Part shown: positions 10,800 through 33,558 of the stretch, one piece after another | Numbering within the stretch: the first letter of the stretch is position 1 | How the letters are laid out: each line of letters opens with the position of its first letter | Source: Rhodothermia bacterium | GTDB taxonomy: Bacteria > Bacteroidota > Rhodothermia > Rhodothermales > JAAAOL01 | Assembly (NCBI GenBank): GCA_030428385.1 | Contig: JAUIDY010000054.1 | Coordinates: forward strand, 1-39,243 | Direction: 5' to 3' | DNA: 39,243 bases | The notes under the pieces: model-generated | Databases searched by the model: none | Seen by the model: the letters and a program-made list of their open reading frames with translations, nothing else | What the model was told of the DNA's origin: nothing | Translations under genes and position numbers: made by a program

Positions 10800-10840
10800 G
10801 GATTCATGTTGCCAGAATGCGTGCGGTACCAGCGTCTACA

Positions 10841-12880: not shown

Positions 12881-12886
12881 GAGCCC

Positions 12887-15800: not shown

Positions 15801-16270
15801 ACCCAGAGTTGGCCTGCGGGGTCGGTATAGAGGACAGGGAAGGTATAGGCACCAATGCTATTACTCGGGGCCCGCCCCGGGCTCAGCGTGCCCGTGGAGT
15901 CGCGCCGAAAATGCATAAAGGTGTCGGTCTTGGGATCGTAGCGACTCAGGCTTTCTGGGTGACTCATCCAGATATGTCCCGTCCCATCCTCGGCCAGAGC
16001 GTTCACGCTGTTTCTCGCTAGGCTGTTGTCCGGCGCGTAGGGGTCGTGCATATAGACCTGAAAGGTATAGCCGTCATACCTGCGTACGCCTCCGGGATCC
16101 GTAGCGAACCATAGAAACCCGCGTTGGTCTTGCAGCACATCGAGCGTTACGCTGTACAGCCCCTCATCGCTGGTAAACCGCTCGAAGGAGAGCGGCTGTG
16201 CCATGAGCACGCCCGCCGTACAGCATACCGCCACGACGAAGGAAGAGAGGCGCTTTGCCGCTTGCGTCAT
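12887..16270 (-). CDS. Histidine kinase B: periplasmic propeller + Y_Y_Y sensor
   Basis: The 1127-residue protein has a signal peptide (cut near AQPLSF, residue 25). A long two-component propeller region (about 28-700) is built of repeats such as LWVGT-x-GLYRFD and IWMSHPESLSRYD. A Y_Y_Y domain (about 715-790; RYAYMLEGYDDDW, YTNLSPGTYTFRVKA) and one membrane helix (about 795-816) come next. A coiled coil then leads to His886 in AHEIKNPL and the ATPase domain. This is the sensor half of hybrid two-component systems common in Bacteroidota, where it usually detects glycans, but the receiver and HTH_AraC parts found in those hybrids are missing. The start overlaps the stop of kinase A in ATGA. 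Long DNA blocks match kinases A and E. Confidence 0.92.
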   Translation of the reverse strand: MTQAAKRLSSFVVAVCCTAGVLMAQPLSFERFTSDEGLYSVTLDVLQDQRGFLWFATDPGGVRRYDGYTFQVYMHDPYAPDNSLARNSVNALAEDGTGHIWMSHPESLSRYDPKTDTFMHFRRDSTGTLSPGRAPSNSIGAYTFPVLYTDPAGQLWVGTTEGVLYRFDAASRSFTHYPLVELERETPGTTTLLAIHADTEGKLWVGTDGQGLFYFDPATGTATHYPQPWGSRKLQALLPDPGEGLWVGTNEGLYHFDPAAGGITPYRHDPANPESLSHDDVRTLAFDDEGRLWIGTNGGGLNRLVTAAASSAPSGRFVRYQRDPADPTSLTSDIIQKLYADRQGSMWATTRSGASRFEPTGYSILHYKADPNKPDGLAWSSTFGIMEAKDGALWLGSSRGLRRLDRTTGAVTRYRNDPDDPATMGGNMIMGVYEDQEGMIWGGSFFSVETGTVPMLNRLDPQRGTVVRYPTIASGQGYYEDTDRTLWVAAANGLFRLSATTRTIEATYGEGTWFVSVFPDGEEGLWLGATDGLYYFDQTAEAMEQVLTEENAVMTVDERRDEPGVLWLGTRGGGLIRYDTQTGQHTRLTAQNSDLPDNTIWGILEDDEGHLWLTMDFGGLIRFSPDTRTVKAFDVDDGVQGREFNAYAYFQSTSGEFFVGGTNGVNAFFPSAVTDNPYPPEVALTQLALFNEPVVVRSTLLPEALFATEQLTLAHEQHDLAFGYVGLHFSDPARNRYAYMLEGYDDDWVEAGTQRMASYTNLSPGTYTFRVKAANSDGVWNEDGASVRVVIRPPWWRTAWAYGFYVVLFAGGVFTVDRVQRRRLIAKERQRAEVETERLRAEAAERELEQAREIEKAYTQLKSTQAQLVQQEKMASLGALTAGIAHEIKNPLNFINNFAEVNEELADELQDALANGESVEDIIADLKQNAAVIAQHGKRADGIVKSMMAHAREGKGEREVVNLNALIDEHVELAYHGKRAQVPEFKVEIERVYDDSIGKVEIVPQDIGRVILNLVGNAFDAVLERAAGSKGQYEPVVHVSSCKKAECIEIRVTDNGPGMNEAVKAKVFEPFFTTKPTGSGTGLGLSLSYDIITQGHGGTLTVESDEGEGAAFVITLPLAEDSPGSTG
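13025..13119 (-). repeat. 95-bp block matching 16402-16496 (kinase ATPase domain)
   Basis: This part of the ATPase domain of kinase B matches 16402-16496 in kinase A at 94 of 95 bases by eye; the difference is at 13072 versus 16449. The block covers the F-box and G2 region, from NGPGM through the FTTKPTGSGTG motif. It supports recent duplication or gene conversion among the five kinase genes. Confidence 0.8.
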
Positions 16271-19200
16271 GGCATAGTTACTTGTTTTGGGGAGTCTGGA
16301 AGAGTCAGGAGGAAGACCGCGCCCTCGTTCTCACTGCTCTCCACGGTGAGTGTGCCGCCGTGCCCTTGCGTGATGATGTCGTACGAGAGCGACAGGCCCA
16401 ATCCCGTGCCGCTGCCCGTGGGCTTCGTCGTGAAAAACGGCTCGAAGATCTTCGCCTTGACGGCCTCGTTCATGCCCGGCCCGTTGTCTGTCACCCGAAC
16501 CTCTACGCGGTCGCCCACCCTGCGGGTCGAGACCATCACCTGGGGAGTATACTGCCCGTTTTGCTGCGCCGCGTACTCCAGCACGGCGTCGAAGGCGTTG
16601 CCGACTAGGTTCAAAATCACCCGCCCGAAGTCCTGGGGGACAACCGCCACCTCGCCAACCGCCGCATCATAGTCACGGGCAATCTCGACGTTGAACCCGG
16701 GCGTTTGGGCGCGTTTGCCGTGGTACGCCAGTTCCATATGCTCGTCGATGAGCGTATTCAGTTCCACCTGCACCCGTTCGCCCTTGCCCTCGCGGGCGTG
16801 GGCCATCATGCTGCGGACGATGCTGTCGGCGCGTTTGCCATGGAGCGCAATCACCCCGGCGTTTTGCTTGAGGTCGGCCAGCAGGTCGTCAATGTGGGCG
16901 AGGGCTTCCGGAAAGTCGGCCAGGTCTTCGCGGACTTCGTCGGCGAGTTCTTCGTTGACCTCAGCGAAGTTGTTGATGAAGTTGAGCGGATTCTTGATCT
17001 CGTGCGCGATGCCCGCCGTCAGCGCTCCCAGCGAGGCCATTTTTTCCTGCTGCACCAGTTGCTGCTGCGTCGTCGTCAGTTCTTCGAGTGCGGCGGCAAG
17101 CTGCTGGTAGGCCTCGGCGTTGTTGAGCGCCACGCCCACGTTGGCGGCAATGGTGTTCAAAAGCCGCAGATCGTCGTCGCCGAAGCGGTTTTCTTCCTGG
17201 GTGCTTTGCACGCTAATCACGCCCATCGCCACCTCGCCTGCCATGATGGGCACGCCGAGATAGGACGCCGACCGTCGCCCGACCCGCTCGATGCCGAGCC
17301 GCACGGTCTCGCCCTGGACGTCACGGTTTAGCAGCAACGGCTGGCGGGTCTGAAGGATCTGCGACGTAAGCCCTTCGCCATAGGCGATGGTGTCGAGGGC
17401 TTCGCCGTAGACGTACGGAAAACGGATCAGCCCAGCCGCTTGGTCGTGGAGGGCCACATAGGCAATGTCGGCGTCGAAGGTCTCGCGCATCTGCTCGCCG
17501 ACGAGGCGGACGAGCGCGTCGAAGTCGAGCTGGGCCACGAGGGCTTTGCTGACCCGGTTGACGGTGTCCAGTTCTTCCACGCGATGCTGGATCTCGGCGG
17601 TGCGCTCCGTCACGGTCTGCTCCAGTTCGCGCTGGCGGGCTTTGAGGTGGCGCGTCCGCTCGCGCACCACGCCGGTCACCACGCCCACGACACCAAGCGC
17701 ATACAGCAAATAGGCCCACCACGAGCGGTACCACGGCGGCAGGATAGTTAGCGCAAACGTAGCTTCGGGACTCTCGTGGTTATAGATGTTTTTGGCCCGC
17801 ACGCGGAACGTGTAGTCGCCCGGCGGCAGGTTGGTGTAGTCGCGGCGGTTTTCATGGGTCCACGCCGACCAGCCTTCATCGAAGCCGCTGAGGATGGTCT
17901 GGTACTGGTTCTCGCGGGCATTGACGAAGCTGAGCGCGGCGTAGGAGAAGCGGAGGGCGCTGTGGGAGGCATCGATGCGCGGTGTGACCGCCTGCACCTG
18001 CCCGGCTCCGCCATAAATCGTCGAATCATTACCCGCCGCCACGCGCCGGATGAGCACGGGGAAATCGGCTTCGTAGTTTTTGTCTTTGCCCTGGTCGTAC
18101 CGAATCACGCCATTGGTGGTACCAAACCACACCACCCCGTCGGCCTCAGGGTAGATGGAATAGGCGGGCGTGGTGCCAAAGCGCCGCAGCGCCGCGTTGT
18201 CGACCTCGTAGGTGCCGTCGGGCTGTCTGCGGAGGCGGGTGGTTTCTTCCCCGAAGTTAATCCAGCGGTTGCCCGCGGCATCATCCACAAAGGTGTACTC
18301 TTCCACCGAATTGTCGAAGGAAACGAGGTTGCTCAAGACGGTGTCAAGCACAAAGCGTTCATTCTCCTCATCAAAGCGATGAACCTGCTCGTTGGCAGCA
18401 AAGAGGGGACCGTTGCGGCTTTCGAGCACCGTACTGTGTTCGGACAACCCCGCATCCCTTTCAAAACGGTCGATGGTGGGGTTGGCAAACGTCTCTTCGC
18501 CGAAGCGCACCCGTAGGATTCCGTCGTTGTAGGTCCCGATCCACAAGACCCCAGGCTCCGGCTCGACGAGCGAGATGATGTAGCTATCGATACCCTCCAC
18601 GCGGCCTTCGTCCACCCAGTCGCCGGAGGGCATCCGGCGGAAGCGTTGGATGCCCTCGAGCAACCCCACGAGCACCACATCGGGGTGTTGGCGAGACTGA
18701 TGGAGAATTTGGGCGTGGAAGTCCCCGGCAACACTTTCGCGGATGATTTCCGCTTGTCCCTGTTCAATCCGATACAGCCCGGAGGTAAGGGCGGCCAGCA
18801 AGTCGCCCTGGCTCTCTAAGAGTTCCCATCCCTGCTTGGTCCCGCCCAGCCCGGACACAGGGACCATCTGGCGGCTGACTGGATCGAGATAAAACACGTT
18901 GTTGTCGGTGGAGACATACAGGATGCCGTTGTGGCGTTTGGTATCTACCACGGCCCCGAGTCCCATGCTGTCGTCGTAGCGCGAGAGCGGCGACGGGATT
19001 TCGACATGGCAGAGGCGGTTGTTGGCCGAGATCCACACCTGATCGTCGTGACTAAGGTAGACATCATAAATGGTGTTGCCCAATCCTGCTCCCAAGTCCA
19101 GGTGCTGGCGCAGGTTGCCTTCACGGTCGATCACATAAAGCCCGCCATCAATCAACCCTAAAACGAAGCTGCCATCGGGAAGGCGTTGTCCTTTGTAAAG

Positions 19201-20010
19201 CGCGCCTCCGCTCATGCGAGCCTGGGCGTTGGTGGAAAAAGGGGTGAACCCCTCGGCATCCGTGAGATAGAGGTTGTTGCTGAAGGTCCCGACCAGGAAG
19301 CGCGTCTCGCCTGCTACCTCATCGTACGGAAGCATCACCTGCATGCGGTCGTTGGCAACCACCTCGCTGCCGGGCAGCACCACGAGTTTGTCGTCCACCA
19401 TTTTCATCAGGCCCACGCCTGCCTGATGCACGTAGTAGATGCCCTCCAGCCAGAAGGCATAGAGAAAACGCTGTTGGGGCTCCCACGTCTTCACCGTCCA
19501 GCCATTCCCTTCCGCCGTCAAACGAAACAGCCGCTCGCGGGCCAGGAAGTAGAGCCCGTCGTCGGTATCGTGAATGGTCCAGATGTCGTTGAACGTGCGC
19601 GCCTCCTCGGGGATTTCGTCCAAGAGGGAGGCAAACTGCAAGTCCCCAGCGGCATCCGGCGTCAGGTACCCGAAGTCGCCAAAGGTGCCTACATAGATGC
19701 GCCCGTCGCGGGCGGCCTCCAGGGAACGGGTGATGTTGTTTTGCGAGTCGATTAACCGCCAGGAGGCGCCGTCATATTCCAGCACACCATCGTTGTTGGC
19801 CACATAGAGCACGCCCCGCGCGTCCTGGGCAAAGTCCCAACTCTGAAAATCGCCGCCATACGCATCGGCATCGAAGCAGGAGAAGAACGGGCGTCCGGCC
19901 TCATCGCGGGGGCTGGACACCGCCGTCTGCTCGGTTTGGGCAACAGCGGGAAGGGGCATCATCCCGGCAACAACGATCAGCAGCAGCGTGCGGCAACAAG
20001 AGGGGTTCAT
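16267..20010 (-). CDS. Histidine kinase A: periplasmic propeller + Y_Y_Y + GAF
   Basis: From the ATG at 20010 the product is 1247 residues with a signal peptide ending at PAVAQ. A propeller sensor (about 30-680) with repeats such as GVLYVANNDGVLEYDG and VLWIGTYNDGILRV is followed by a Y_Y_Y domain (YQTILSGFDEGW, YTNLPPGDYTFRVRAK), a membrane helix, a coiled coil and a cytoplasmic GAF domain (roughly 830-980; AYVALHDQAAGLIRFPYVYG, ASYLGVPIM). The dimerisation helix has His1003 in AHEIKNPL, then the ATPase domain. A longer frame to 20304 exists, but its extra residues are translated palindromic repeat, so it was rejected. It is the first of the five kinases, 318 bp after the kinase-receiver-phosphatase gene. 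The stop overlaps the start of kinase B in ATGA. Confidence 0.9.
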   Translation of the reverse strand: MNPSCCRTLLLIVVAGMMPLPAVAQTEQTAVSSPRDEAGRPFFSCFDADAYGGDFQSWDFAQDARGVLYVANNDGVLEYDGASWRLIDSQNNITRSLEAARDGRIYVGTFGDFGYLTPDAAGDLQFASLLDEIPEEARTFNDIWTIHDTDDGLYFLARERLFRLTAEGNGWTVKTWEPQQRFLYAFWLEGIYYVHQAGVGLMKMVDDKLVVLPGSEVVANDRMQVMLPYDEVAGETRFLVGTFSNNLYLTDAEGFTPFSTNAQARMSGGALYKGQRLPDGSFVLGLIDGGLYVIDREGNLRQHLDLGAGLGNTIYDVYLSHDDQVWISANNRLCHVEIPSPLSRYDDSMGLGAVVDTKRHNGILYVSTDNNVFYLDPVSRQMVPVSGLGGTKQGWELLESQGDLLAALTSGLYRIEQGQAEIIRESVAGDFHAQILHQSRQHPDVVLVGLLEGIQRFRRMPSGDWVDEGRVEGIDSYIISLVEPEPGVLWIGTYNDGILRVRFGEETFANPTIDRFERDAGLSEHSTVLESRNGPLFAANEQVHRFDEENERFVLDTVLSNLVSFDNSVEEYTFVDDAAGNRWINFGEETTRLRRQPDGTYEVDNAALRRFGTTPAYSIYPEADGVVWFGTTNGVIRYDQGKDKNYEADFPVLIRRVAAGNDSTIYGGAGQVQAVTPRIDASHSALRFSYAALSFVNARENQYQTILSGFDEGWSAWTHENRRDYTNLPPGDYTFRVRAKNIYNHESPEATFALTILPPWYRSWWAYLLYALGVVGVVTGVVRERTRHLKARQRELEQTVTERTAEIQHRVEELDTVNRVSKALVAQLDFDALVRLVGEQMRETFDADIAYVALHDQAAGLIRFPYVYGEALDTIAYGEGLTSQILQTRQPLLLNRDVQGETVRLGIERVGRRSASYLGVPIMAGEVAMGVISVQSTQEENRFGDDDLRLLNTIAANVGVALNNAEAYQQLAAALEELTTTQQQLVQQEKMASLGALTAGIAHEIKNPLNFINNFAEVNEELADEVREDLADFPEALAHIDDLLADLKQNAGVIALHGKRADSIVRSMMAHAREGKGERVQVELNTLIDEHMELAYHGKRAQTPGFNVEIARDYDAAVGEVAVVPQDFGRVILNLVGNAFDAVLEYAAQQNGQYTPQVMVSTRRVGDRVEVRVTDNGPGMNEAVKAKIFEPFFTTKPTGSGTGLGLSLSYDIITQGHGGTLTVESSENEGAVFLLTLPDSPKQVTMP

Positions 20011-20328
20011 GCGAAAGGTCGTGGTTTTGGTGGCGGGGTTGTGGCGGGCGTGGGTTATGGAGTACTCATGGCGAGTTGTCTTTTTCCGTACCGTGGATGA
20101 GCATGCGGCAAGGCCTTGTCCCGTGTCATCCTGAACTTGTTTTAGGATCTCTCGCCATCGTATGAGATTCCGAAACAAGTTCGGAATGACACTTTGTTGT
20201 GCGGGGTGGCATCTCTCGGTCAGGATGACACCTTGTTGTGTGGGATGACACCTTTTTTCAGTTGACGCTAACCGATAGGATGAAAAAACCGCCTTCATAA
20301 GCACACACGACGTTTTTCTCCAACCGGC
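20011..20328 (-). promoter_or_regulatory. 318-bp intergenic region upstream of the five-kinase array
   Basis: This is the only large gap inside the minus-strand block from the sigma factor to the oxidase. It holds the palindromic repeat described at 20123-20262 and otherwise no gene. A separate promoter for the kinase array could lie between the repeat and 20010, but I see no convincing -35/-10 pair. Transcription may also read through from the upstream gene. Confidence 0.4.
20123..20262. repeat. Palindromic REP-like repeat cluster
   Basis: Bases 20123-20152 (GTGTCATCCTGAACTTGTTT and on) and 20164-20192 form an imperfect inverted repeat of about 29 bp with an 11-bp loop. ATGACAC-type units recur at about 20186, 20225 and 20245 with TTGTTGTG between them. 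The CATCCTGAACTTGTTT...AAACAAGTTC pattern is a widespread bacterial extragenic palindrome. Read in one frame it encodes IPNLFRNL and KQVQDD peptides that are often wrongly annotated as protein. It separates the phosphatase fusion gene from the kinase array and could attenuate transcription between them. Confidence 0.75.
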
Positions 20329-22656
20329 TCATGCGCCCGAATAAACACCGAGAAAACGCAGCGCGAGCACGGTTAAATCGTCAATGAGGGGGGCGTCGTC
20401 GATGTGGTTCATCACCTCCCGGACGATGTCGCGGATACGGCGGGCGGCGCTGGTTTCGGGAGGCAGGCTGCGGAGGGTGGCGGCGAGGCGCTCGGTGGTG
20501 AATGGCTGCCCCGCCTCGTCGATGGCGCGGGGGACGCCGTCGGTGAACAGAAACAAGCCCTCGCCGGGAGTCAGCGTCACCTGATGGGTAGCGTAGACGG
20601 TATCGCGGTCCTTCCAGACGGGCGGTGCGGTGCCGGGCAGGGGCTCCACACGGTTCGGCCCCACGAGATAGGGCGCGGGATGTCCGGCGTTGGCATACAA
20701 CACGGTGCCGGTGGACGTGTCGAGCACGCCATAACACACCGTCACGGCAAGGTCGGGGAAGCCCTGGGGATAGAGCACGCGGTTCATTTCAGTGAGGCAC
20801 GCGCCCGGCACCTCGTCCTGCCGCGCTACGCCTTTCAAAAACGTCTGGCTCATTGCCATAAACAGCGCAGCCGACACGCCCTTGCCTGCCACGTCGCCGA
20901 TGAGAAAACCCACGCGGTGGTCGCCCATCTCGAAGAAGTCGTAGAAGGTACCGCTGACGTTGCTGGCCGTCGTGGTGAAGGCGTACAGGTCCACATCGGC
21001 ACGCTGCGGAAAGGCGACGGGCAGGATGGCTTCCTGGATGCGCCGCGCCACCTCTAACTCCTGCTGCATCGCTGCCACCTGCCGCTGCGCCTCCGTGGCC
21101 TGACGGTAGGCCCGCAGTTCAGTGTGGGTTTTTTCGATAGTGGTTTCCAGATCCACAAAGTCGATGGGCTTTGTCACGAAGTCGAACGCGCCCCGGTTCA
21201 TCGCCGTGCGGATGTTGGAGAGGTCGCCGTAGGCCGAGACGACGACGGTTTTGATGGGGCGGTTCAGGTCGTGCAGCTTCGAGAGTAGCGTCAGCCCGTC
21301 CATCTTCGGCATGTTGAGGTCCGTCAGCACCACATCAATCTCGGAGTGGAGGTCGAGTTGGTGGAGGGCGTCGTGCCCGTCCACGGCGAAGGTGAACACC
21401 CAGTCCCCTGCGCGGATCTTGCGGCGGAATTTCTGCCGCATTAGCAGTTCCAGTTCGGGCTCGTCGTCTACCACCAGCAGATGCACGCGCTCGTCTTCTG
21501 GCTCGTCGATGGTGGTGAGGGCGGTCGGGGCTGGGGCTGCTGGAGCGCTGGGCAACACCGCCTCCACCACGCTGGTTCGGGCATCGAGCCGTGCCTGCAC
21601 GGCCTTGAGGTCGGCCATCAGGTCGTGCATCGACGCATAGCGGCGTCCGAGGTCGCGGGACAGCGCTTTGTTGATGACGTGGGCGAGTTGCATCGGCACG
21701 CCGCTGCGCAGGCCGGTGACGGGCGGCGGGTCGTGGTTGAGCAGCCCGTAGATGACCGCTTGCGGGTTGTCGCCGGGGAAGGCGCGCTGGCCTGACACCA
21801 TCTCGTAGAGCACGGCACCGAGCGCCCAGACGTCGGCGCGGTGGTCCAGGGCCTCGCCACGGGCTTGCTCGGGGGCCATGTAGGCGGCGGTGCCCATAAG
21901 CGTGCCGCTGCGGGTGATCTGCACCGTGTCGGTCAGCTTCGCCAACCCGAAGTCGAGCAGCTTCACGCGTCCGTCGGTGATGATGACGTTGGCGGGCTTC
22001 ACATCGCGGTGGACGATGCCACGTGTGTGGGCCTGCGCCAGCCCGTCGGCCATTTGTAGCGTCCAGTCGAGCACCGACGCCAGCGGCAGTGCGCCCCGTC
22101 GTAAGGTGGCGTGCAGCGTCTCGCCCGCGTAATACGCCATCGCGATGAACACCTGCCCGTCGGCGGTATCGTTGATTTCGTAGACGGTGCAGATGGCGGG
22201 ATGATCGAGGGCCGAGGCGGCCTGGGCTTCGCGCAAAAAGCGCCGCCGCGCGCGTTCGTCGCGGCTCCAGAGCGGGGGCAGGAACTTGAGCGCCACGGTG
22301 CGGCGCAAGCGGGTGTCTTCGGCTTTGTAGACCACGCCCATGCCACCGCCGCCCAACAGCTCGTCCACGCGGTACGGCCCCACGGTTTGCCCTACCAACT
22401 GATGCGGATCGGGCTGGGGCGGCAGCCCTGCCGCTGGAGGAGGGAGCTTGCCAAACAGGCTGTCCGACAGGCTATCGAAGTAGTCGGGGGCTTCCTCATA
22501 GGCGGCGAGCAAGGCGTCCACTTCACGGCGCTTCGGCGTATCCACGCCGCACGTCACATCGAGGAAATCCGACCGTTGGTCGGTGGGCAATTCCAGCACT
22601 TGGACGATGAGGGACCCCAGTTCGTCCCAGCGGTCGGCGTCGAGGGTTCCAGCCAT
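20329..22656 (-). CDS. Ser/Thr protein kinase - receiver - SpoIIE-type phosphatase fusion
   Basis: The 775-residue protein starts with an 85-residue helical module seen in sigma-coupled kinases. A Hanks-type kinase follows (about 94-355; GGGGMGVVYK loop, Lys124, catalytic Asp218 in HRDVKPAN, Asp235 in DFG, APEQ). A CheY-type receiver (391-510) has the acid pair at 397-398, phospho-acceptor Asp446 in LTDLNMP, Ser474 and Lys496. A coiled coil with RRIQEAILP leads to a SpoIIE/RsbU PP2C phosphatase (555-770; Asp588 in DVAGKG, Asp706 in FTDG, Asp759-760). The usual GGDxYD reads SGTFYD, so one Asp is Thr570. No membrane helix: cytoplasmic. The start overlaps the sigma-factor stop by one base (TGATG). 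It probably integrates phosphorelay input into Ser/Thr phosphorylation and dephosphorylation of unknown partners. Confidence 0.93.
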   Translation of the reverse strand: MAGTLDADRWDELGSLIVQVLELPTDQRSDFLDVTCGVDTPKRREVDALLAAYEEAPDYFDSLSDSLFGKLPPPAAGLPPQPDPHQLVGQTVGPYRVDELLGGGGMGVVYKAEDTRLRRTVALKFLPPLWSRDERARRRFLREAQAASALDHPAICTVYEINDTADGQVFIAMAYYAGETLHATLRRGALPLASVLDWTLQMADGLAQAHTRGIVHRDVKPANVIITDGRVKLLDFGLAKLTDTVQITRSGTLMGTAAYMAPEQARGEALDHRADVWALGAVLYEMVSGQRAFPGDNPQAVIYGLLNHDPPPVTGLRSGVPMQLAHVINKALSRDLGRRYASMHDLMADLKAVQARLDARTSVVEAVLPSAPAAPAPTALTTIDEPEDERVHLLVVDDEPELELLMRQKFRRKIRAGDWVFTFAVDGHDALHQLDLHSEIDVVLTDLNMPKMDGLTLLSKLHDLNRPIKTVVVSAYGDLSNIRTAMNRGAFDFVTKPIDFVDLETTIEKTHTELRAYRQATEAQRQVAAMQQELEVARRIQEAILPVAFPQRADVDLYAFTTTASNVSGTFYDFFEMGDHRVGFLIGDVAGKGVSAALFMAMSQTFLKGVARQDEVPGACLTEMNRVLYPQGFPDLAVTVCYGVLDTSTGTVLYANAGHPAPYLVGPNRVEPLPGTAPPVWKDRDTVYATHQVTLTPGEGLFLFTDGVPRAIDEAGQPFTTERLAATLRSLPPETSAARRIRDIVREVMNHIDDAPLIDDLTVLALRFLGVYSGA

Positions 22657-23246
22657 CAGGATACCGTGGCTTGCTTGAGGTGATGGTACAGCCACGTCTG
22701 GGCCAGCAGCCAGTCGCGCTTGACCGTAGCAGGCGAGATGCCGAGGGCCTCGGCGGTGTCAGGGATGGTCATGCCGCCAAAGAACCGGCATTCCACCACC
22801 CGCCCTTGCCGCTCGTTGATTTGTGTCAGGCGTTGCAGGGCCGTGTTGAGGTGGAGCACTTCCTCCGCTTGTTCGAGCGAGAGGGGGCCATACGTTTGGG
22901 CGGCGGCCTGTTGGATGGGGTCGAGGTCCACCCGCTGCTGGTCGCCGCCGCGCTTCTGGCGCTGTTGCTGCTTGGCGTAGTCGATGAGGATATGACGCAT
23001 GGCTTTGGCGGCCACGCCGAGGAAATGTGCCCGGCTGTTCCAGCCCGCGTGCGTCTGGTCTACCAGTTTCAGGTACGCCTCATGGACAAGCGCTGTGGTG
23101 TTGAGGGTGTAGTCGCCGTGCCACCGGCGGCGTTGGTGCTGGGCCTGCGCCCGTAGTTCATTGTACACCAACGGAAACAGGGCATTCCAGGCTTCCTGGT
23201 TTCCTTCATCAATAGCCTCCAGAAGCTGGGTTACGTTTTCTGGCAT
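22656..23246 (-). CDS. ECF-like RNA polymerase sigma factor (TIGR02999-type)
   Basis: This 196-residue protein has sigma region 2 (about 10-90; AWNALFPLVYNELRAQA, HEAYLKLVD, RAHFLGVAAKAMRHILIDYAK) and region 4 (about 130-190; LTQINERQGRVVECRFFGGM, then a helix-turn-helix in TIPDTAEALGISPATVKRDW). The sequence style matches the ECF-like group common in Planctomycetes, Acidobacteria and Rhodothermota that is regularly encoded beside Ser/Thr kinases and is not controlled by a classical membrane anti-sigma. Here too no anti-sigma gene is present and the next gene encodes a Ser/Thr kinase fusion, translationally coupled through TGATG. Control of the sigma factor by that kinase/phosphatase is plausible. 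It is divergent from the FAD-enzyme operon. Confidence 0.92.
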   Translation of the reverse strand: MPENVTQLLEAIDEGNQEAWNALFPLVYNELRAQAQHQRRRWHGDYTLNTTALVHEAYLKLVDQTHAGWNSRAHFLGVAAKAMRHILIDYAKQQQRQKRGGDQQRVDLDPIQQAAAQTYGPLSLEQAEEVLHLNTALQRLTQINERQGRVVECRFFGGMTIPDTAEALGISPATVKRDWLLAQTWLYHHLKQATVS

Positions 23247-23512: not shown

Positions 23513-25219
23513 ATGACTCCCAACTCCTCCTTCGATGTCGTCGTGATAGGCGGTGGACCGCATGGCATAACCTATGCCTCATGGCTCAAAAAATGGCGTC
23601 CCGAAACCCGCATCGCCATCGTCGAGCGGCTCGCTACGCCGGGTTACAAAGTGGGCGAAAGCCTGCTGTCCACCGCCACGCGCAGCTTCGTCTCGATGGG
23701 GCTGTCGATGGGGGTCATGCGGCGGCTGTTCAGCAACAAGGCAGGCATCCGCTTCTGGTGGACGGAGCCGTATACGAACGCCCTGCACCGCCACCTCGAC
23801 GTGGTGGACATCGAAGAGACGTTTCAGGTGGAGCGGCGCGTCCTCGACCTCGCCCTCCAGGAAACTGCCCGTCGCAAAGGCATCACCCTGCTGACGGGCA
23901 CCCGGGTCAACCTGAAGAAGTCGGACCTCCGCAGCGAAACCAAACAGATCGCGTGCGACGGCCCCGATGGTCCGTTTACGCTCTCCTGCAGGATGGTGTG
24001 TGACGCCAGCGGCCCCGCCTCCATCTTGTCGCGCCACCTCGGGCTGTATCGCAAAGCCCCGGAAGCCCACCAGACGTTCAGCACCCATTCCTATTTCGCG
24101 TATTTCAAGCCTAAAAAATCCGTCCCGGTGCCTTTCTGGGATGAGCCTGCTACCCGCCACCTGTGCTTTCCCGGCGGCTGGGGCTGGGTGATCCGCATGA
24201 CCTCGTGGGACCAGACGCCCGACGAAAACCTGCGGCAGATGGTGAACCACCTGCTGGATCAGGGCGAGGCTCCTGACGCGGCGTTGCCGTCGCGCCATGC
24301 CCTGGCCGCGCAGTTTGGTGCCACGCACGAACCGCTCGTCAGCATCGGCTTCACCGTCCGCGCCGACCGCGACACCGCCACCGGGCGCGACGTCCGGGCT
24401 GCCTTTGAGCATTACGTCCAAAAACATCCCGCTATCGCCGAGATTATGCAGCACTACGAGCTGGTGGAGACGCCGTATGGCAAGCCGACGCCCTACATGG
24501 CCTTTCGCAACCTCGTGCACGACAGCAAGCGCGTGGCGGGCCAGGGTTGGTGCATCGTGGGTGATGCCGCCGCGTTCGTCAACCCCCTGTTTTCGCCCGG
24601 GATGAACCTCGGCAGTGGCAGTTGCTACCTGGCCGCGCAGGCCACCGTCGATGCCCTCGATCAAGACATCCCCACGGCAAAACCCTTTGCCGACTACGAG
24701 CAGTACATGCGCGACATTTACGAAGCCGTACTCGCCGAGACCGACCTCTACTACCGCGCCTTCGACCACATCGACACGTACGAATGGGCGCTCTTGCTCA
24801 AGATTTTCTTCGGCGCGGCGGACGTCATCACCCGCGACGATGTGTACACCGCATCCGATCCGTACGTCCACGACCTGCTCAACCCGGCCTTTCGGGAGCG
24901 CGTGGATGCCGCCCGCACGATGCTATATGAAGCCGAACTGACGGGCACGCCCGTTTCGAAGGTTGCGCCCTTTGTGCGCAGCATCATCGAGCCCTTTGTG
25001 AAGGGGCGCCTCCGCGAACCCGCCGTGCAAGCCCTGCGCCTGGGCGACGTGTTCAGCGAGTACACCGCCCTCGGCGACCGCGTGGCCCACAAGCACCGCC
25101 ATCGCCCCGAACTGAGCTTCGACGCCTGTGACACCTGCGCCGAACACAAAGACGCCAACCTTTCGCTCTGCCCCATTTGTGGCGCTGAGACCGCCGCGAC
25201 CCACCGCACTGCGGCCTGA
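23513..25219 (+). CDS. Halogenase-like FAD-dependent oxidoreductase with four-Cys tail
   Basis: The 568-residue product has a Rossmann FAD motif VVIGGGPHG (9-17), the VGESLL segment (47-52) typical of flavin-dependent halogenases and related monooxygenases, and the second FAD motif CIVGDAAAFVNPLFSPGMNLG (347-367 region). The halogenase signature WxWxIP appears as WGWVIR (223-228), with Arg in place of Pro. The C-terminus carries CDTC (539-542) and CPIC (553-556), a zinc-ribbon or rubredoxin-like four-Cys pattern not usual for the family. The ATG at 23513 is chosen because upstream in-frame starts add non-homologous sequence. It heads an operon with an OsmC protein and a methyltransferase, suggesting modification of an aromatic or lipid metabolite. 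Halogenation itself is unproven. Confidence 0.85.
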   Translation: MTPNSSFDVVVIGGGPHGITYASWLKKWRPETRIAIVERLATPGYKVGESLLSTATRSFVSMGLSMGVMRRLFSNKAGIRFWWTEPYTNALHRHLDVVDIEETFQVERRVLDLALQETARRKGITLLTGTRVNLKKSDLRSETKQIACDGPDGPFTLSCRMVCDASGPASILSRHLGLYRKAPEAHQTFSTHSYFAYFKPKKSVPVPFWDEPATRHLCFPGGWGWVIRMTSWDQTPDENLRQMVNHLLDQGEAPDAALPSRHALAAQFGATHEPLVSIGFTVRADRDTATGRDVRAAFEHYVQKHPAIAEIMQHYELVETPYGKPTPYMAFRNLVHDSKRVAGQGWCIVGDAAAFVNPLFSPGMNLGSGSCYLAAQATVDALDQDIPTAKPFADYEQYMRDIYEAVLAETDLYYRAFDHIDTYEWALLLKIFFGAADVITRDDVYTASDPYVHDLLNPAFRERVDAARTMLYEAELTGTPVSKVAPFVRSIIEPFVKGRLREPAVQALRLGDVFSEYTALGDRVAHKHRHRPELSFDACDTCAEHKDANLSLCPICGAETAATHRTAA

Positions 25220-25247
25220 CCTGACCCTTTTAACCCGAGATAAACCG

Positions 25248-25772
25248 ATGAACCCGACCCACGCTGTCATTAAAGACGCCCTCGAACGCAAAATCCGGCT
25301 GCTCAAGCATCGCCCGAGCATTGCCCAAGGGACCGCCACGTCACGCACAACGCTGAAAGAAGGCATGGTCTGCGACGTGGAAGAAGGCCGCTGGCAGGTG
25401 CGACTCGACATCAGCCCGAAGTCGGGCGGCACCGGGAGCGCGCCCGACCCGGGCGTCTTCGGACGCGCCGCGCTCGGAAGCTGCATGGCGATGACCTACC
25501 AGCGCTGGGCCATCCTGCTCGATATTCCCGTCGACGCCATCACGGTGGAGGTGCAGGCCGACTACGACGCACAGGGGCAATACGACCTGGCTCCCGTGCC
25601 CATCAGCTACACCGCCGTGCGGGTGCATGTCACCATCGACAGCCCCGCCTCCGACGACGATTTGCAGTACCTCTTGGACTTTGCCGATGCGCATTGTCCG
25701 TACCTCGATGTGTTCCGCCGCGCCTTGCCGGTGGAGCGCACCGTTTCACTCACGACCTCAACCTCGATATAG
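25248..25772 (+). CDS. OsmC-family peroxide reductase
   Basis: The 174-residue protein is an OsmC/Ohr-type thiol peroxidase. The peroxidatic Cys79 is in GRAALGSCMAMTY and the resolving Cys150 is in DAHCPYLDVF, so both catalytic cysteines are present. The N-terminal 45 residues carry an extra basic helix (DALERKIRLLKHRP). The family reduces organic hydroperoxides with dithiols in the cytoplasm. The start at 25248 is 28 bases after the FAD-enzyme stop; the longer frame from 25128 would overlap that gene. Its place in the operon suggests it copes with peroxide formed by the upstream flavoenzyme. Its stop lies two bases before the methyltransferase start. Confidence 0.87.
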   Translation: MNPTHAVIKDALERKIRLLKHRPSIAQGTATSRTTLKEGMVCDVEEGRWQVRLDISPKSGGTGSAPDPGVFGRAALGSCMAMTYQRWAILLDIPVDAITVEVQADYDAQGQYDLAPVPISYTAVRVHVTIDSPASDDDLQYLLDFADAHCPYLDVFRRALPVERTVSLTTSTSI

Positions 25773-25774
25773 CT

Positions 25775-26593
25775 ATGACTCCGCAACTACAACGCCGCGT
25801 GCAGCGCTACGGCTGGGACCACGCGATGCCCCACTACGAAAACGGCTGGAAACAGCAACTCGCTCCGTCGCAAGAGCGCCTGCTGGCCCTCGCCAACCTC
25901 GACGCCTTCGAGCGGGTGCTGGATGTCGCCTGTGGCACCGGCCTCATCACCTTCCCCGCTGCCGAACAGGTTGGCCCCGGCGGCAAAGTGTTCGCCACCG
26001 ACATTTCCGACAAGATGGTGGACTTCGTCAAGCAGGAAGCCCGCCGCCGCAAGCTGGGGCAAGTCGTCGCAAAGCGCGCCGAAGCCGAGCAGCTGAACAT
26101 GCCTGCGCACTGCTTCGATGCCGTCCTGTGCTCCCTGGGACTGATGTATGTCCCTGACCCGATGCAGGCGCTTTCCCAGATGCTCCAGGTGGTGTGTCCC
26201 GGTGGGCGGGTGGTGGCCTCCGTGTGGGGCGCCCGTGCTCATTGCGGGTGGTCGGGCATCTTCCCCGTGGTGGACGCCCGCGTGAACACCGATGTGTGTC
26301 CGCTGTTTTTCCAACTGGGGACGCAGGACCTCTTGGCCCAGGCGTTCACCCAAACCGGATTCACGCAGGTGATCAGCGAGCGTATCTCCACGCTGCTGCA
26401 CTACCCCAACGCCGAGGCGGCGTGCTTTGCCGCCTTCGTGGCCGGTCCCGTGGCCATGGCCTATGCCCGCTTCGACGAACAAACGCGCGCTGAAGCCAAG
26501 GCCGACTACCTCGCTACCATCGAGCAATACCGCCAGGGTACGGGCTATGCCATTCCCGGCGAGTTTGTAGTGGTGCGGGGCATCAAACCATAA
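25775..26593 (+). CDS. Class I SAM-dependent methyltransferase (UbiE/Methyltransf_11-like)
   Basis: This 272-residue enzyme has SAM motif I VLDVACGTGLIT (48-59), the acidic end of strand 2 in VFATDIS (72-78), motif II around FDAVLCSLGLMYVPDP (114-129), and the post-II PGGRVVASVW segment (143-152). The spacing is typical of UbiE-like small-molecule methyltransferases; the acceptor is not evident. ATG 25775 follows the OsmC stop by two bases, and the longer frame from 25694 would overlap OsmC, so the short start is used. It is the last gene of the three-gene operon and is followed after 26 bases by a strong terminator. Confidence 0.88.
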   Translation: MTPQLQRRVQRYGWDHAMPHYENGWKQQLAPSQERLLALANLDAFERVLDVACGTGLITFPAAEQVGPGGKVFATDISDKMVDFVKQEARRRKLGQVVAKRAEAEQLNMPAHCFDAVLCSLGLMYVPDPMQALSQMLQVVCPGGRVVASVWGARAHCGWSGIFPVVDARVNTDVCPLFFQLGTQDLLAQAFTQTGFTQVISERISTLLHYPNAEAACFAAFVAGPVAMAYARFDEQTRAEAKADYLATIEQYRQGTGYAIPGEFVVVRGIKP

Positions 26594-26619
26594 CGGAGGA
26601 TCAACGAAGGGGTGTTCGG

Positions 26620-26655
26620 AAAGGGTCTGGTAGTATGGCTACCAGACCCTTTCTT
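26620..26655 (+). terminator. Rho-independent terminator of the FAD-enzyme operon
   Basis: A perfect 14-bp stem, AAAGGGTCTGGTAG (26620-26633) and its complement (26639-26652), closes a five-base TATGG loop and runs into TTTCTT. It lies just downstream of the methyltransferase stop and should end the three-gene plus-strand operon. Confidence 0.85.
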
Positions 26656-26784
26656 GCGGTGGGTCTTGCGTGTTTTTACGAAAGCCCTTTGGGGAAACGC
26701 TCCCCGATTGCGTCATGATAGACAACAGCCTTCCAACCGAAGGCGCAACCCCTCGAAAACGGAACCCCCTTTGAGGTATAGATC

Positions 26785-27570: not shown

Positions 27571-30500
27571 CTACATACGCTGGATGAGTTCTTGAAAGCG
27601 CGGGTTGTCGCGCAACGGGTCCATGTCGGGGTCATGCTCCACCCATTCGCGGTGGGCGATGCCCTGGTCAATGGCCCGTTCGAGGCAGTCGAGGGCGCGT
27701 TCCAGGGCGCCAGCCCTGGCAAAGCCACACGCTGCATTCCACATCACGGTCGGATTTTCGGGACCCAGGGCGAGGGCGCGTTCGATGTAGGCGAGGCCTT
27801 GTTCTTTTTCGCCCAGGCGGATGAGGGTGCTGCCGCCCAGGTAGAGCGCGCGCAAGTTGTCTGGGTTGAACTCCAGGTGGCGTTCAACCCGCTGCAAGCT
27901 GCGTTTTCGTTGGGCCTGGGCAAGGTCTTTGGCATCCAGCGCTTCATACACCAGCGCGAGCAAGGAGGCCGACTGGAACTCGCGCGGGTCCAGTTCCGAG
28001 GCTTCCTTAAAATGAACGGCGGCCTGCTCGTATTTGCCCTGCTTAAAAGAGAGGCGGGCATAGAAGTAGTGGGCGTCGTACAGCTTCGGGTTGATGGTGA
28101 CGGCTTCCTGCAGCGCAGCCTCGGCGGCATGATATTCCCCGGCCAGGTCCAAGGCCAAGCCCCGTGCCACGTGCGACTCGGCGAGGTGGGGTGCGAGAGA
28201 GAGGGTGTGCTGGCTGATTTTCATGGCTTTCTGTGCCGTCTCCGCCGATGCCTGCACCCATTTGTCACGGAAATAATAGACATAGACACACGCGGCATGG
28301 GCGGGCGCATAGGTTGGGTCAATGTCGATGGCGCGGGCAAACAGCCGCAGCGCATGTTCCAGGTCATCGACGTTGGTTTCATACAGAAACTGCCGCCCTT
28401 TGAGGTAATATTCGTACGCCTCCACATGGGTGGGCGTGCTCTGATGGAGCGCATCCCGGTCGTCGGGCGTGAGCATGCCGCGTAGCATCCGGGCGGTGTG
28501 TTCGGCAATCTCGTCCTGCACCGCAAAGATGTCGGCCACCTCGCGGTCGTACCGCTCCGACCAGCGGTGGTAACCGTCGGCGGTGTTGATCAACTGGACC
28601 GTGATGCGCAGCTGGTTGCCGGCTTTGCGCACGCTGCCTTCGAGCACCGTATCTACGTTCAACTGCTCACCGATGGCGCGGATGTCGAGGGTGGCGTCCT
28701 TAAACAAAAACGACGACGTGCGAGAGGCCACCTGCAGCCCTTCGAGGCGGGTTAAGGCGTTGATGATTTCCTCGGCGACGCCCTCGCAGAAATACCCCTG
28801 GTCGCGGGCGGGGCTCATGTCAGAAAACGGGAGGACGGCAATGGAGGGGATGATAGGCTCGGTGGGAAGGGCATCAAGGACGGTGCGGGCGTTGACGAGG
28901 TCGGGCGTGTCGAAGCCTTCGGTAAACCAGGCATAGAGGGGGACCAGCACCGCACGGGCGCCTTCGGCCTGACCTTGCCGGTGCATCCAGGTGGCGAGGC
29001 TGGTGGCAGCCCGCAACTCCATCGTCTTCGACCGCTGCAACTGGGCCACCGCGATGGCTTCGCGGTAGGCAGCCACGGCCACGGCGGGCTGATGGGTTTC
29101 CTGCAGCACTCCTTGCAGGCGGTGGAGTTCAGCCTTGTAGAAATAGCGCCGGAAGTTGCCCAGTTCATCCAGGGCTTCTTGGAGGGCGAGCAGTCCTTCG
29201 GGCGTGCGTCCGGCATGGTGCAGGGCCTCGGCGAGGAGGCCCAGGTAATAGGGGCGGTCCATGCGGGCCCCGTTGCGTTCACAGTGTGCCATCCCCTCCT
29301 GTATCAGGCGCACCCCTTCGTCGGCTTGTTTCTGGTCGGCGCCGTCGTCGCAGGCCATCGCCCAGCCCTGCAGAATGCTGCCGGTGGCGACCCGGTAGGG
29401 AAACCCCTGGCGCTCGGCCACGGCGATAGTGGCATCGGCCCATTCGCGGGTGAGGCGTACTTCGCCCCGGCACTGATAAAAGACCGCCGCCTGCTCTTGT
29501 ACATGGGCGAGGTTGTAGAGGTGGTCGGGGTTTTGGTTGAGATGCAGCGCGTGCTCGAATTGTACCAGGGCTTGGTCGGGGTAGCCCAGAAACCAGTGCG
29601 ACAGCGCCCCCCACGTGAGGCACGAGATGCCGGGGTTGTCGCCCATAAAAGCGCTGAGGGCATCGTGTTTTTGGGGATTAAACAGGGTCAGTCCTTGCTC
29701 GGCGTGCTCCAGGGCACGGGCAAAGCGGCCCTGATGAAACAGCGAGCAGGCGAGCAGTTCATGGGCTTCCAGAATCATGGGGCCTTCCGGCGTCAGCAAG
29801 CGCTCTGTTGCGATCTTCTCCGAGCGATCGAACTGACCTTGCAACTCATACAGGCTGGCCAGTGCCTGAATGATGCCCGGTTGCTGGGGAGGATTATCCA
29901 ACTGGCTGCACAGCACATCGGCGCGGAGGAAGGCCGCTTCGGCATCGGGGGCGGCCCAGCCTTTGGTGAGGATCAGGATGGGCCCCAGGAGCGCTTGCAG
30001 CTTTAGTTCGAGTTCCAGGCGCACCGTATCCTGTGGCAGGTTTTCGAGTAAGGCAAACCCTTGCTCCAGGTGGTCGACGGCTTCCGGGTGGGCACTGCGG
30101 CGCATGGCTTGCCGGGCCGCCGCATACAGGTGCGTCACCGCATGCGCGAACTCGCGTCCACGGATGAAGTGCAGGGCCAGTTCGGCCGCATGTTGAGCCA
30201 CCTCATCGGCATAAGCCGTCTCCAGCCGATGGCCCACAAGCCGGTGCCAGCGGACCCGTCGGGCCGGCGGGATCTGTTGGTACAGCACTTCTTGATAAAG
30301 GGCATGCGTGAAGGCGTAACGCCCCGTCAGGGTGCCGTCCGGCCAGTCGGCAGTGCCGCGGCTGCGCAAGAACCGCCGCCGTTGGACCAGCGCTTCACAC
30401 CGGGCTTCTATAGTTTCTTCCGTGTGGTGCAGCAGCGGGGCGACGGCAGCGGCCGAGAACCCCACGCCTACGATGCTGGCGGCTTCCAGCACGTCCCGGT

Positions 30501-33417
30501 CCGCGGCGTCCAGTTGCTGCATTTGCTCTTCCACCAACAGCCGCACGTTTTCGGGCACCTCCGTTGCCAGCTTGTCCAGCGGGGTTTGGAGTTTCCAGGT
30601 TGATCCTTCCTGCACCACATGGCCGTGGTTCACCCAAGCGTCCACCACGTTACCCATAAACAAGGCATTGCCATCGGTGCGTTCATGCAACACCGGGGCC
30701 AGCACCGAAGGCAGGGTGGAGCCGGGGAAGCACTGGGCCAGGTAGGTCTCCACGTGGGCAGGTTGCAACAACGGCACTGCCTGTTGCTCGGCATAGCCGC
30801 GCTGAGGCAACACATGCAGGGCATGCAGCGGATGCGCTGGATCGAGGGCATCGGCGGGGCGGTAGGTGCCAATGAGGAGCAAACGCGCCGGTTCAGTGCG
30901 CCGTGCCAGCCGAACGAGCAGATCGATGGTCGACGGGTCGCTCCAGTGCAGGTCTTCGATGACCAGCACCAGCGGGTGTTCGTGGGCACAGATCTCCATC
31001 GCCTCGGTCATCTCGCGGAGCATGCGCTCTTTGGTGGCACCGAGCACGCGCACCTGCAACTCCTCGTACAGGGCCGTATCCACCAGCCCGGGCATCTGGA
31101 CGAGCCACGTGGGTGCTTGCTGGGCGAGGAGATGAACCAGCTTGTCGCCCGCCGTCTTGCGGCAAAGCCGCGCCACGGCTTCGAGCACGGGCATGTAGGC
31201 TTCGCCGGCGCCCCGGTGTTCCAGACACTGCCCGTGCCCGATCCACAGCGAAGGGGTGGAGCGGATCGATGCCAGAAACGCTTCGATGAGGGTTGTTTTG
31301 CCCATGCCTGCTTCGCCTGTAAGCAACACCATCTGTCGGCGGCCTTGCAGCGCCAGGTGGAGCCGGTCGTGCAAAAAGGCGAGTTCGTCTGTTCGTCCTA
31401 CCACCCGTTCGACATGGGTGCCCGTGGGGACACCGGAGTTTGAGGTGGAGGGCGCTATGGGGCCGAACGCCTCGGCGGGCGGTAGGGCGGGGTCGGGAGG
31501 GGATGGAAACGACAGGTCCGCCAGGTGGTGGACCACGGCCTCCGCCGAGGCAAGCCGGGCGGTGCGGTCTTTCTGGAGCATCTGCTCCACAAGGTGGGCT
31601 ACGGCGTCGGGCACCTCAGGGCGCAGCGACTGCACCGGGGCGGGGTCCTCATGCAAAATGGCGTTGAGGATGGCATAGTCGTAGGCCCCCGTAAACGGGC
31701 GCTCTCCGGTTAGCATCTGATAGAGCACCACGCCGAGGCTCCAGAGGTCGGCGCGGTGGTCGACGGGCTGGTGGCGGACCTGCTCGGGGCTCATGTAGGC
31801 AATCGTCCCCACCAGTTGCCCCGTGCGGGTCAGCTTCACGTCTTCCACCTTGGCGATGCCGAAGTCGAGCAGCTTAACCTCGCCGTGGGTGGTCACGGCC
31901 ACGTTGGCGGGCTTGATGTCGCGGTGGATGACCCCGGCGGCATGGGCCCGCGCCAGCCCCGCCGCCATCTGGCGGGCATAATGGAGGGCGTCGGAAAGGG
32001 GAATGGGGCCGTGTACTACTTTTTCCTGAAGCGTCTCGCCTTCATAAAAGGCCATCGCGATGCACAGCCGCCCATCGTTGTCCTCCACGATGTCATAGAT
32101 GGTGCAGATGTTGGGATGGTCGAGCGACGACGCGATCCGGGCCTCATGCACAAACCGCTGCTTGGCCTCAGGATGGTCGCTCACATGGGGCGGCAAAAAC
32201 TTTAGGGCCACAATGCGGCCTAGCCGTTGGTCGCGGGCCTTGTACACGACGCCCATGCCGCCCTTGCCCAGCGGCTCCAGCATCTCATAGTGCAGGATGT
32301 GCGGAGGTGGGGAGGCGGGCGCGGCTATTTCCCATGCATCAGAGGCGGGGGCGAGGCTATCGGTGCGCTCCACTCCTAAAAAGTCGTACACCGAATCCAC
32401 AAACTGAGCCCACGCGGGCTCGTGTGCGAGCAACAAGTGGTTGTTGCTTTCGAGCGGCACAAACTGCGCTTCGGGGATCAGGGTGGCGAGCAGGCGGCCT
32501 TCCTTGCGGGGAATGAGGCGATCGTCCCGCGCATGAAGGACGAGGGTGGGCACGCTCACCTGCTGGGCCGCCTCCAGCACATTCATTTCGGCAAAACTGC
32601 TGATGAGGGCGGCGGCGTTTTCGGGAGAGGTGGTGATGCGTTGCAGTTCGTTGAACCACCGCATGTGTTCGGCGGAGCCCTCGGGGATAAACAGGCTGGT
32701 GAACACCTGCCGAAAGGCTTCATGGTCCTGTCCCCAGCCATAGCGGATGACGGGCATCATCATCTCGGTGGCGTCGTTGACGGTTTGTCCCCGAAAGCGC
32801 CATCCCCGTCCAAAGGCCCCATGCAGGATGAGGTGGCTGACCTTTTCCGGGTGCTTCACCGCATAGGCGATGGCAATGGCACCGCCCTGCGAGATGCCCA
32901 GCAGCGGAAAGCGTTCCAGTCCCAGCGCGTCCACCACCGTTTCGAGGTCCTGCACCCACGCGTCGAGGGAGTAGTCCTTCACGTCCCAGTCCGAGAGGCC
33001 ACAGCCGCGTTCGTCGTAGCGCACCAGCGTATGGTAGCGCGAGAGCGCCTGCATCCAGTGTTTCCAGACGGGACTTTCCCACTCGAATTCCAGGTGGGTG
33101 AGCCAGTTGGCCACCTTCACGAGGGGCGGCCCATCGCCCACGGTGGCATAGGCGAGGCGGGTGCCATCGGCGGCGGTGCAGAACTGAACCTGCTGGGAGG
33201 GCGTGACGGACGGCGGGGCGGGCTTGAGTTGAACGGCGGGCTTTTCGAGGAAACCATCACTTTCGGCTTCTTCATCGGCCTCCAGCAGGCTTTGCAACTC
33301 CACCCGCAGGTCGGTGTCATCGGCGCACGCTGCATCCAGAAAGGCCCCCCGCTCCTCCGGCGGGTACATTTTGGCAGCGCGGAACAGCCATTCCAAACGG
33401 TCGAGGTGGGGGGTCAT
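27571..33417 (-). CDS. Giant signalling protein: alpha/beta hydrolase - Ser/Thr kinase - AAA ATPase - TPR - TolB-like - TPR
   Basis: The 1948-residue protein has a helical N-terminal module (1-60) like that of the sigma-linked kinase. An alpha/beta hydrolase (80-350) has nucleophile Ser176 in GISQGG, Asp298/299 and His327. A Hanks-type kinase (375-635) has GKGGMGVVYK, Lys406, Asp500 in HRD, Asp518 in DFG and SPEQ. A predicted STAND/AAA ATPase (670-1050) has Walker A GEAGMGKTT (701-709) and Walker B VLVIEDLHW (817-825). TPR-like helices occupy 1080-1500, a TolB-like domain common in adenylate cyclases occupies 1524-1650 (SIAVLPFSDMSP, LEGSVRKAGNQLRITVQLI), and further TPRs reach the end. No signal or clear membrane helix: cytoplasmic. 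ATG 33417 fits the N-terminal module better than the start nine codons upstream. Confidence 0.9.
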   Translation of the reverse strand: MTPHLDRLEWLFRAAKMYPPEERGAFLDAACADDTDLRVELQSLLEADEEAESDGFLEKPAVQLKPAPPSVTPSQQVQFCTAADGTRLAYATVGDGPPLVKVANWLTHLEFEWESPVWKHWMQALSRYHTLVRYDERGCGLSDWDVKDYSLDAWVQDLETVVDALGLERFPLLGISQGGAIAIAYAVKHPEKVSHLILHGAFGRGWRFRGQTVNDATEMMMPVIRYGWGQDHEAFRQVFTSLFIPEGSAEHMRWFNELQRITTSPENAAALISSFAEMNVLEAAQQVSVPTLVLHARDDRLIPRKEGRLLATLIPEAQFVPLESNNHLLLAHEPAWAQFVDSVYDFLGVERTDSLAPASDAWEIAAPASPPPHILHYEMLEPLGKGGMGVVYKARDQRLGRIVALKFLPPHVSDHPEAKQRFVHEARIASSLDHPNICTIYDIVEDNDGRLCIAMAFYEGETLQEKVVHGPIPLSDALHYARQMAAGLARAHAAGVIHRDIKPANVAVTTHGEVKLLDFGIAKVEDVKLTRTGQLVGTIAYMSPEQVRHQPVDHRADLWSLGVVLYQMLTGERPFTGAYDYAILNAILHEDPAPVQSLRPEVPDAVAHLVEQMLQKDRTARLASAEAVVHHLADLSFPSPPDPALPPAEAFGPIAPSTSNSGVPTGTHVERVVGRTDELAFLHDRLHLALQGRRQMVLLTGEAGMGKTTLIEAFLASIRSTPSLWIGHGQCLEHRGAGEAYMPVLEAVARLCRKTAGDKLVHLLAQQAPTWLVQMPGLVDTALYEELQVRVLGATKERMLREMTEAMEICAHEHPLVLVIEDLHWSDPSTIDLLVRLARRTEPARLLLIGTYRPADALDPAHPLHALHVLPQRGYAEQQAVPLLQPAHVETYLAQCFPGSTLPSVLAPVLHERTDGNALFMGNVVDAWVNHGHVVQEGSTWKLQTPLDKLATEVPENVRLLVEEQMQQLDAADRDVLEAASIVGVGFSAAAVAPLLHHTEETIEARCEALVQRRRFLRSRGTADWPDGTLTGRYAFTHALYQEVLYQQIPPARRVRWHRLVGHRLETAYADEVAQHAAELALHFIRGREFAHAVTHLYAAARQAMRRSAHPEAVDHLEQGFALLENLPQDTVRLELELKLQALLGPILILTKGWAAPDAEAAFLRADVLCSQLDNPPQQPGIIQALASLYELQGQFDRSEKIATERLLTPEGPMILEAHELLACSLFHQGRFARALEHAEQGLTLFNPQKHDALSAFMGDNPGISCLTWGALSHWFLGYPDQALVQFEHALHLNQNPDHLYNLAHVQEQAAVFYQCRGEVRLTREWADATIAVAERQGFPYRVATGSILQGWAMACDDGADQKQADEGVRLIQEGMAHCERNGARMDRPYYLGLLAEALHHAGRTPEGLLALQEALDELGNFRRYFYKAELHRLQGVLQETHQPAVAVAAYREAIAVAQLQRSKTMELRAATSLATWMHRQGQAEGARAVLVPLYAWFTEGFDTPDLVNARTVLDALPTEPIIPSIAVLPFSDMSPARDQGYFCEGVAEEIINALTRLEGLQVASRTSSFLFKDATLDIRAIGEQLNVDTVLEGSVRKAGNQLRITVQLINTADGYHRWSERYDREVADIFAVQDEIAEHTARMLRGMLTPDDRDALHQSTPTHVEAYEYYLKGRQFLYETNVDDLEHALRLFARAIDIDPTYAPAHAACVYVYYFRDKWVQASAETAQKAMKISQHTLSLAPHLAESHVARGLALDLAGEYHAAEAALQEAVTINPKLYDAHYFYARLSFKQGKYEQAAVHFKEASELDPREFQSASLLALVYEALDAKDLAQAQRKRSLQRVERHLEFNPDNLRALYLGGSTLIRLGEKEQGLAYIERALALGPENPTVMWNAACGFARAGALERALDCLERAIDQGIAHREWVEHDPDMDPLRDNPRFQELIQRM

Positions 33418-33558
33418 GCCAGAAACAGTACCTGTCAGACGCAAAAAAGCGGGTGGGGCACCGGTCGCGCCCTCCGAATCCTACCGCTGCGATACGATAC
33501 AAAAAATCGCTGAATCGTTTTGTGTTTTCTTTCGCTTACGGCTCCCGATAGGCGGTGG

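Follow-up and report, generated by a model that had tools for sequence, protein, structure and literature searches.

A probable bacterial member of the zinc-tailed MalA class of flavin-dependent halogenases, encoded in front of an older OsmC–methyltransferase gene pair

Introduction

The fungal halogenase MalA has been proposed to belong to a new class whose C-terminus binds zinc (accessible text of PMC5945002), a feature that is also described in section 8 of PMC8407142. Lys108 of MalA is named as its catalytic lysine (PMC9144378, section 31), and the active-site residue Glu494 is assigned to substrate binding and activation (PMC9144378, section 31; PMC8407142, section 8). The latter section treats Glu494 as the base for the substrate NH, a substrate-specific rather than class-defining feature, reports that halogenases acting on electron-rich phenols lack the corresponding glutamate, and gives Fx.Px.Sx.G as the halogenase tunnel motif. 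Our literature searches, conducted mostly at the level of search results and with subscription papers outside their scope, surfaced no bacterial MalA-like or zinc-tailed halogenase, and the accessible text of a 2026 preprint (PMC12871659) makes no mention of MalA or zinc.

Here we analyze contig JAUIDY010000054.1 of a Rhodothermia bacterium (assembly GCA_030428385.1), whose 39,243 nucleotides constitute the window referred to throughout. It encodes a 568-aa flavoenzyme that, judged from its sequence, is probably (at a probability of roughly 0.8) a bacterial member of the known zinc-tailed MalA class and a two-component flavin-dependent halogenase. This assignment draws on its FAD motif, catalytic lysine, WxWxI and Fx.Px.Sx.G motifs, shared descent with MalA and a conserved four-cysteine tail.

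Results

The flavoenzyme is encoded on the plus strand by an open reading frame with an ATG start. An alternative in-frame GTG start at 23348 would yield 623 aa; the homologues match the ATG start instead. Two genes follow closely on the same strand, and the features of the locus are as follows.

23513–25219 (+): predicted MalA-type flavin-dependent halogenase, 568 aa (Pfam, PDB search, MalA alignment, tree)
23549–23566 (+): GxGxxG FAD-binding motif, residues 13–18 (G13/G15/G18 on MalA G44/G46/G49)
23738–23740 (+): Lys76, counterpart of MalA catalytic Lys108 (MalA alignment; kept in 17 of 17 family rows aligned)
24179–24196 (+): WGWVIR, residues 223–228, WxWxI motif followed by Arg, a feature shared with MalA (MalA alignment, MAFFT rows)
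24575–24601 (+): FVNPLFSPG, residues 355–363, Fx.Px.Sx.G halogenase tunnel motif (alignments with MalA and family rows)
24818–24820 (+): Ala436, probable counterpart of MalA Glu494 (profile alignments; MAFFT puts the column elsewhere)
25127–25180 (+): CxxC-x10-CxxC tail, Cys 539, 542, 553 and 556, predicted zinc site (Calothrix conservation, tail profile)
25248–25772 (+): OsmC-like protein, upstream member of the older gene pair (PF02566, E 2e-16)
25775–26593 (+): class I SAM-dependent methyltransferase, downstream member of that pair (PF08241, E 3e-20)
About 26618–26654 (+): terminator-like hairpin 3' of the methyltransferase gene, with a short U tract (folding energy)

Gaps of 28 nt between the halogenase and OsmC genes and of 2 nt between the OsmC and methyltransferase genes suggest that all three are co-transcribed. 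The hairpin that follows is strong (−38.4 kcal/mol over 26590–26670, z −5.5), and past it lies a lipoprotein-like gene at 26785. Neither a sigma-70-like promoter nor a match to the Bacteroidota-type promoter patterns that we tried was found for the three-gene unit. An initial annotation, made from the sequence alone, had described this layout accurately: the OsmC-like and methyltransferase genes that it named are present, and both the WGWVIR motif and the numbering of the four cysteines are correct.

Upstream of the halogenase gene and divergent from it is an ECF sigma factor gene (22656–23246, minus strand), adjoined by a gene for a 788-aa protein in which Ser/Thr kinase, response-regulator receiver and SpoIIE-type phosphatase domains are combined (20329–22695, minus strand). 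Further out, the minus strand carries five consecutive large sensor-type ORFs (5176–20304), and a Pfam scan of the first four found histidine kinase ATPase domains in each. The fifth encodes 1345 aa; its true start probably lies further in, since its upstream part (20100–20304, minus strand) enters repeat-like DNA (GTGTCATCC stretches and their complement). On the other side of the locus, a 1957-aa protein (27571–33444, minus strand) unites alpha/beta hydrolase, Ser/Thr kinase and AAA ATPase parts with TPR repeats.

The 568-aa protein scores 65 bits against the Pfam family Trp_halogenase (PF04820; gathering cut-off 21). Its score falls short of the cut-off for each of the 25 NCBIfam models shown, among them the geranylgeranyl reductase model TIGR02032 (78.4 bits against a curated cut-off of 158.8), and its broad Pfam and NCBIfam matches also take in hydroxylases and reductases. 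When all solved structures were searched with phmmer, the best matches were the MalA/MalA' entries 5wgr–5wgz (E about 1e-56), with the next-best solved halogenase about thirty orders of magnitude behind at E 7e-24. A profile search against MalA gave E 6e-69. In the phmmer alignment with MalA, 130 of 367 aligned residues are identical, K76 falls on K108 and W223-W225-I227-R228 on W263-W265-I267-R268, and FxNPxxSPG is common to both proteins. Of the WxWxI(P) motif, WGWVI is kept and the final proline is replaced by arginine. This replacement had been taken as a departure from halogenases; it is instead a MalA trait, because R228 falls on R268. At the position of Glu494, the profile alignment places Ala436 followed by Asp437 in the window protein and a glutamate in the Calothrix proteins described below, an equivalence that depends on the aligner.

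The closest homologues come from the cyanobacteria Dulcicalothrix desertica PCC 7102 and Calothrix sp. PCC 7103, one protein each. Both retain the four tail cysteines, which are absent from all 13 tail-less cyanobacterial relatives. Although the tail of the window protein is only about 30% identical to those of the Calothrix proteins, the four cysteines, P554 and G557 are invariant, which argues that the cysteines are conserved beyond chance. The initial annotation held that its reading would fall if phylogeny set the protein firmly among non-halogenating reductases and homologues did not conserve the cysteines; all four are kept in the closest homologues, and the tree described below separates the protein from geranylgeranyl reductases. 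The tail of MalA does not align with that of the window protein by sequence, and alignments end near MalA 524–529. Three approaches to aligning the two tails (the tail sequence alone, a tail profile and a MalA-anchored profile) failed, the score of the last being circular and not counted as evidence. Judged by their position and by the published descriptions of MalA, the two cysteine clusters are putatively homologous. A structure prediction from a three-row alignment (A1) had a pLDDT of 39.8, too low to be of use.

Phylogenetic analysis, which the initial annotation had proposed as a check, placed the window protein with MalA and outside the geranylgeranyl reductases. The main tree comprised 27 rows and omitted the tail, whose columns were filled in fewer than 30% of rows; MalA was represented by residues 38–524 only. 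Left out were GGR_L058, GGR_L061 (the same protein as TRPH_L067), two sequences without the full halogenase motif set (TRPH_L066 and TRPH_L068) and six for which extraction gave an empty or fragmentary result (L057, L060, L062, L063, L064 and L065). The window protein and the two Calothrix proteins joined at 100/98, and these joined MalA at 100/99. The tailed group, MalA and the tail-less cyanobacterial enzymes formed one clade (100/100), and five geranylgeranyl-reductase-family proteins were set apart (100/99). Removing the reductases left the grouping of window, Calothrix and MalA proteins the same (100/99), and removing the window protein as well still joined Calothrix and MalA (98/99). In the two trees that contained the window protein, the two most divergent tail-less cyanobacterial proteins branched beside the tailed group (92/90 and 91/87). 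MalA, the one fungal row, forms a long branch in every tree.

A family profile (E 1e-60) detected the halogenase in one of 114 genomes of the order, one of 394 genomes sampled from the phylum of the window and two of 386 sampled from the Calothrix phylum. The tail-less relatives number 13 and come from 12 cyanobacterial genomes (of 388 genomes searched, 13 gave a match, Dulcicalothrix among them); all 13 proteins have the lysine, WxWxIP and Fx.Px.Sx.G, and none has the cysteine tail. In the one flank examined, that of the tail-less halogenase L007, the neighbours do not look biosynthetic. No relative was found in the viral collections searched and no match in the phage records searched, and plasmid records gave only distant halogenase or oxidoreductase matches below 60% identity, with at least 80% query coverage in one of 47 records.

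OsmC relatives occur in nine further genomes from the order (10 of 114 including its own) and methyltransferase relatives in eight (9 of 114 including its own). In each of these eight genomes the two genes are same-strand neighbours whose matched stretches are separated by 11 to 70 nt, and in none of them is the halogenase present; the ninth OsmC genome (G1127) gave no methyltransferase match. The genes upstream of the pair vary among the eight (L044–L048, L050–L052). No relative of either gene was found at either Calothrix locus (17.7 kb apiece, with a further 24 kb around the Dulcicalothrix one) or, within the flanks covered, beside the 13 tail-less cyanobacterial relatives. A literature search naming both proteins surfaced no function for the pair, and searches for a link between OsmC and halogenases, mostly at search-result level, surfaced none.

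Discussion

Our results identify the window protein as probably a halogenase of the MalA class, which agrees with the “halogenase-like” label of the initial annotation: the motifs are kept, MalA is the best solved relative, and the tree excludes geranylgeranyl reductases from the clade. It is conceivable that the protein is instead an FAD monooxygenase or an enzyme of the geranylgeranyl-reductase type that does not halogenate but has retained halogenase-like motifs, given that models of the GG-red superfamily and of hydroxylases match it and that the proline of WxWxIP is gone. We consider this rather improbable, with the catalytic lysine, WxWxI and Fx.Px.Sx.G all in place, the five reductase-family proteins split from it in the tree at 100/99, and the same proline missing from MalA, a working halogenase. 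As for the tail, CxxC-CPxCG is also the pattern of rubredoxin and rubrerythrin, and the cysteines could form a rubredoxin-like iron or thiol redox domain that feeds electrons to the flavin and makes the enzyme a single-component halogenase. Rubrerythrin is indeed among the weak matches of the tail profile in the PDB (best E 0.022), but these are mostly zinc-binding proteins (RING, zinc hook, zinc knuckle, Nop10 and LysW). Every catalytic motif is kept in the 13 tail-less relatives, and the C-terminus of MalA binds zinc (accessible text of PMC5945002), making a redox tail very improbable. The electron-transfer role that had been suggested for the tail is thus unnecessary, since a zinc-binding C-terminus has already been described for MalA. 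Of the earlier proposal that the cysteines bind zinc or iron, the metal site stands as plausible by comparison with MalA, most likely as one structural Zn2+ (predicted), and both the arginine and the tail find an ordinary explanation in MalA.

The downstream genes raise the question of whether the locus encodes one dedicated pathway in which a compound is halogenated and O- or C-methylated while OsmC clears peroxide. Close spacing and a common terminator-like hairpin speak for such a pathway, and halogenation is coupled to methylation in some fungal pathways, as with AoiQ (accessible text of PMC9144378). Against it, the OsmC and methyltransferase genes are adjacent in eight other genomes of the order that lack such a halogenase, and neither has a relative at the Calothrix loci or, in the flanks covered, beside the 13 cyanobacterial enzymes. 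Since the pair is adjacent in eight genomes of which none has the halogenase, it is older and independent, and we regard a dedicated three-gene pathway as unlikely. For the same reason, the earlier reading of the locus as a three-gene metabolite operon is weak, and that of OsmC as a scavenger of peroxide leaked by the flavin is unsupported. The pair may have been recruited later into one pathway with the halogenase in this strain. More generally, a co-directional cluster of three genes should not be equated with a pathway if two of them are an older pair.

The halogenase gene was probably acquired horizontally and landed in front of the resident pair, which would then share its transcript and not its pathway. 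The GC3 and base composition of the gene resemble those of its neighbours and bear no foreign mark, so any transfer was not recent enough to show. No insertion scar was found around the gene, and nearby repeats look like chance.

By analogy with the family, a separate flavin reductase would supply FADH2, which would react with O2 to form a C4a-hydroperoxide that is then attacked by halide. The resulting HOX would move down the tunnel to Lys76 for halogenation of a free aromatic substrate. A flavin reductase gene (PF01613) is present elsewhere in the genome; such genes also occur in 13 of 14 control genomes, and its presence is permissive only. The apparent alanine at the Glu494 position hints, at the level of sequence, at an electron-rich, phenol-like substrate that would need no base.

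Because two divergent tail-less cyanobacterial proteins branch beside the tailed group, we tentatively propose, at less than even odds, that the tail arose in bacteria. Tail-less WxWxIP halogenases, perhaps cyanobacterial, would have gained the CxxC-CxxC motif and later passed to fungi, with the window enzyme a surviving bacterial form whose active-site base, and hence substrate class, has changed.

The window and Calothrix proteins would add bacterial members, shorter and probably easy to express, to a class that the reviews consulted present through fungal MalA, and natural variation at the Pro/Arg/Thr and Glu/Ala sites could be used to probe the roles of the zinc tail and the glutamate base.

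Compared with MalA/MalA' from Malbranchea (PDB 5wgr–5wgz), the window protein has a catalytic domain that is 35% identical over 367 residues and shares the counterpart of K108, WxWxIR, FxNPxxSPG and, putatively, a metal-type tail at the C-terminus. It differs in being bacterial, in its length (568 against 667 residues), in the apparent alanine in place of Glu494, in a C-terminal tail that is not alignable with that of MalA by sequence, and in the location of its gene outside any indole-alkaloid cluster. The Dulcicalothrix and Calothrix proteins (L002 and L003) are 46% identical to it over the full length and carry all four tail cysteines, but they have WMWFIT where the window protein has WGWVIR, a glutamate at the Glu494 position where profile alignment gives the window protein alanine, and no OsmC or methyltransferase neighbour. 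The tail-less cyanobacterial relatives (L007–L019) share the same catalytic motifs and the same wider clade (100/100), but have the canonical WxWxIP and are without the CxxC-CxxC tail. The OsmC-like protein, for its part, resembles the OsmC/Ohr family (PF02566) in its Pfam membership and its two cysteines (GSC and HCP), as a putative peroxidase, and differs in scoring below what NCBIfam requires for its OsmC-like (seleno)protein and Ohr models.
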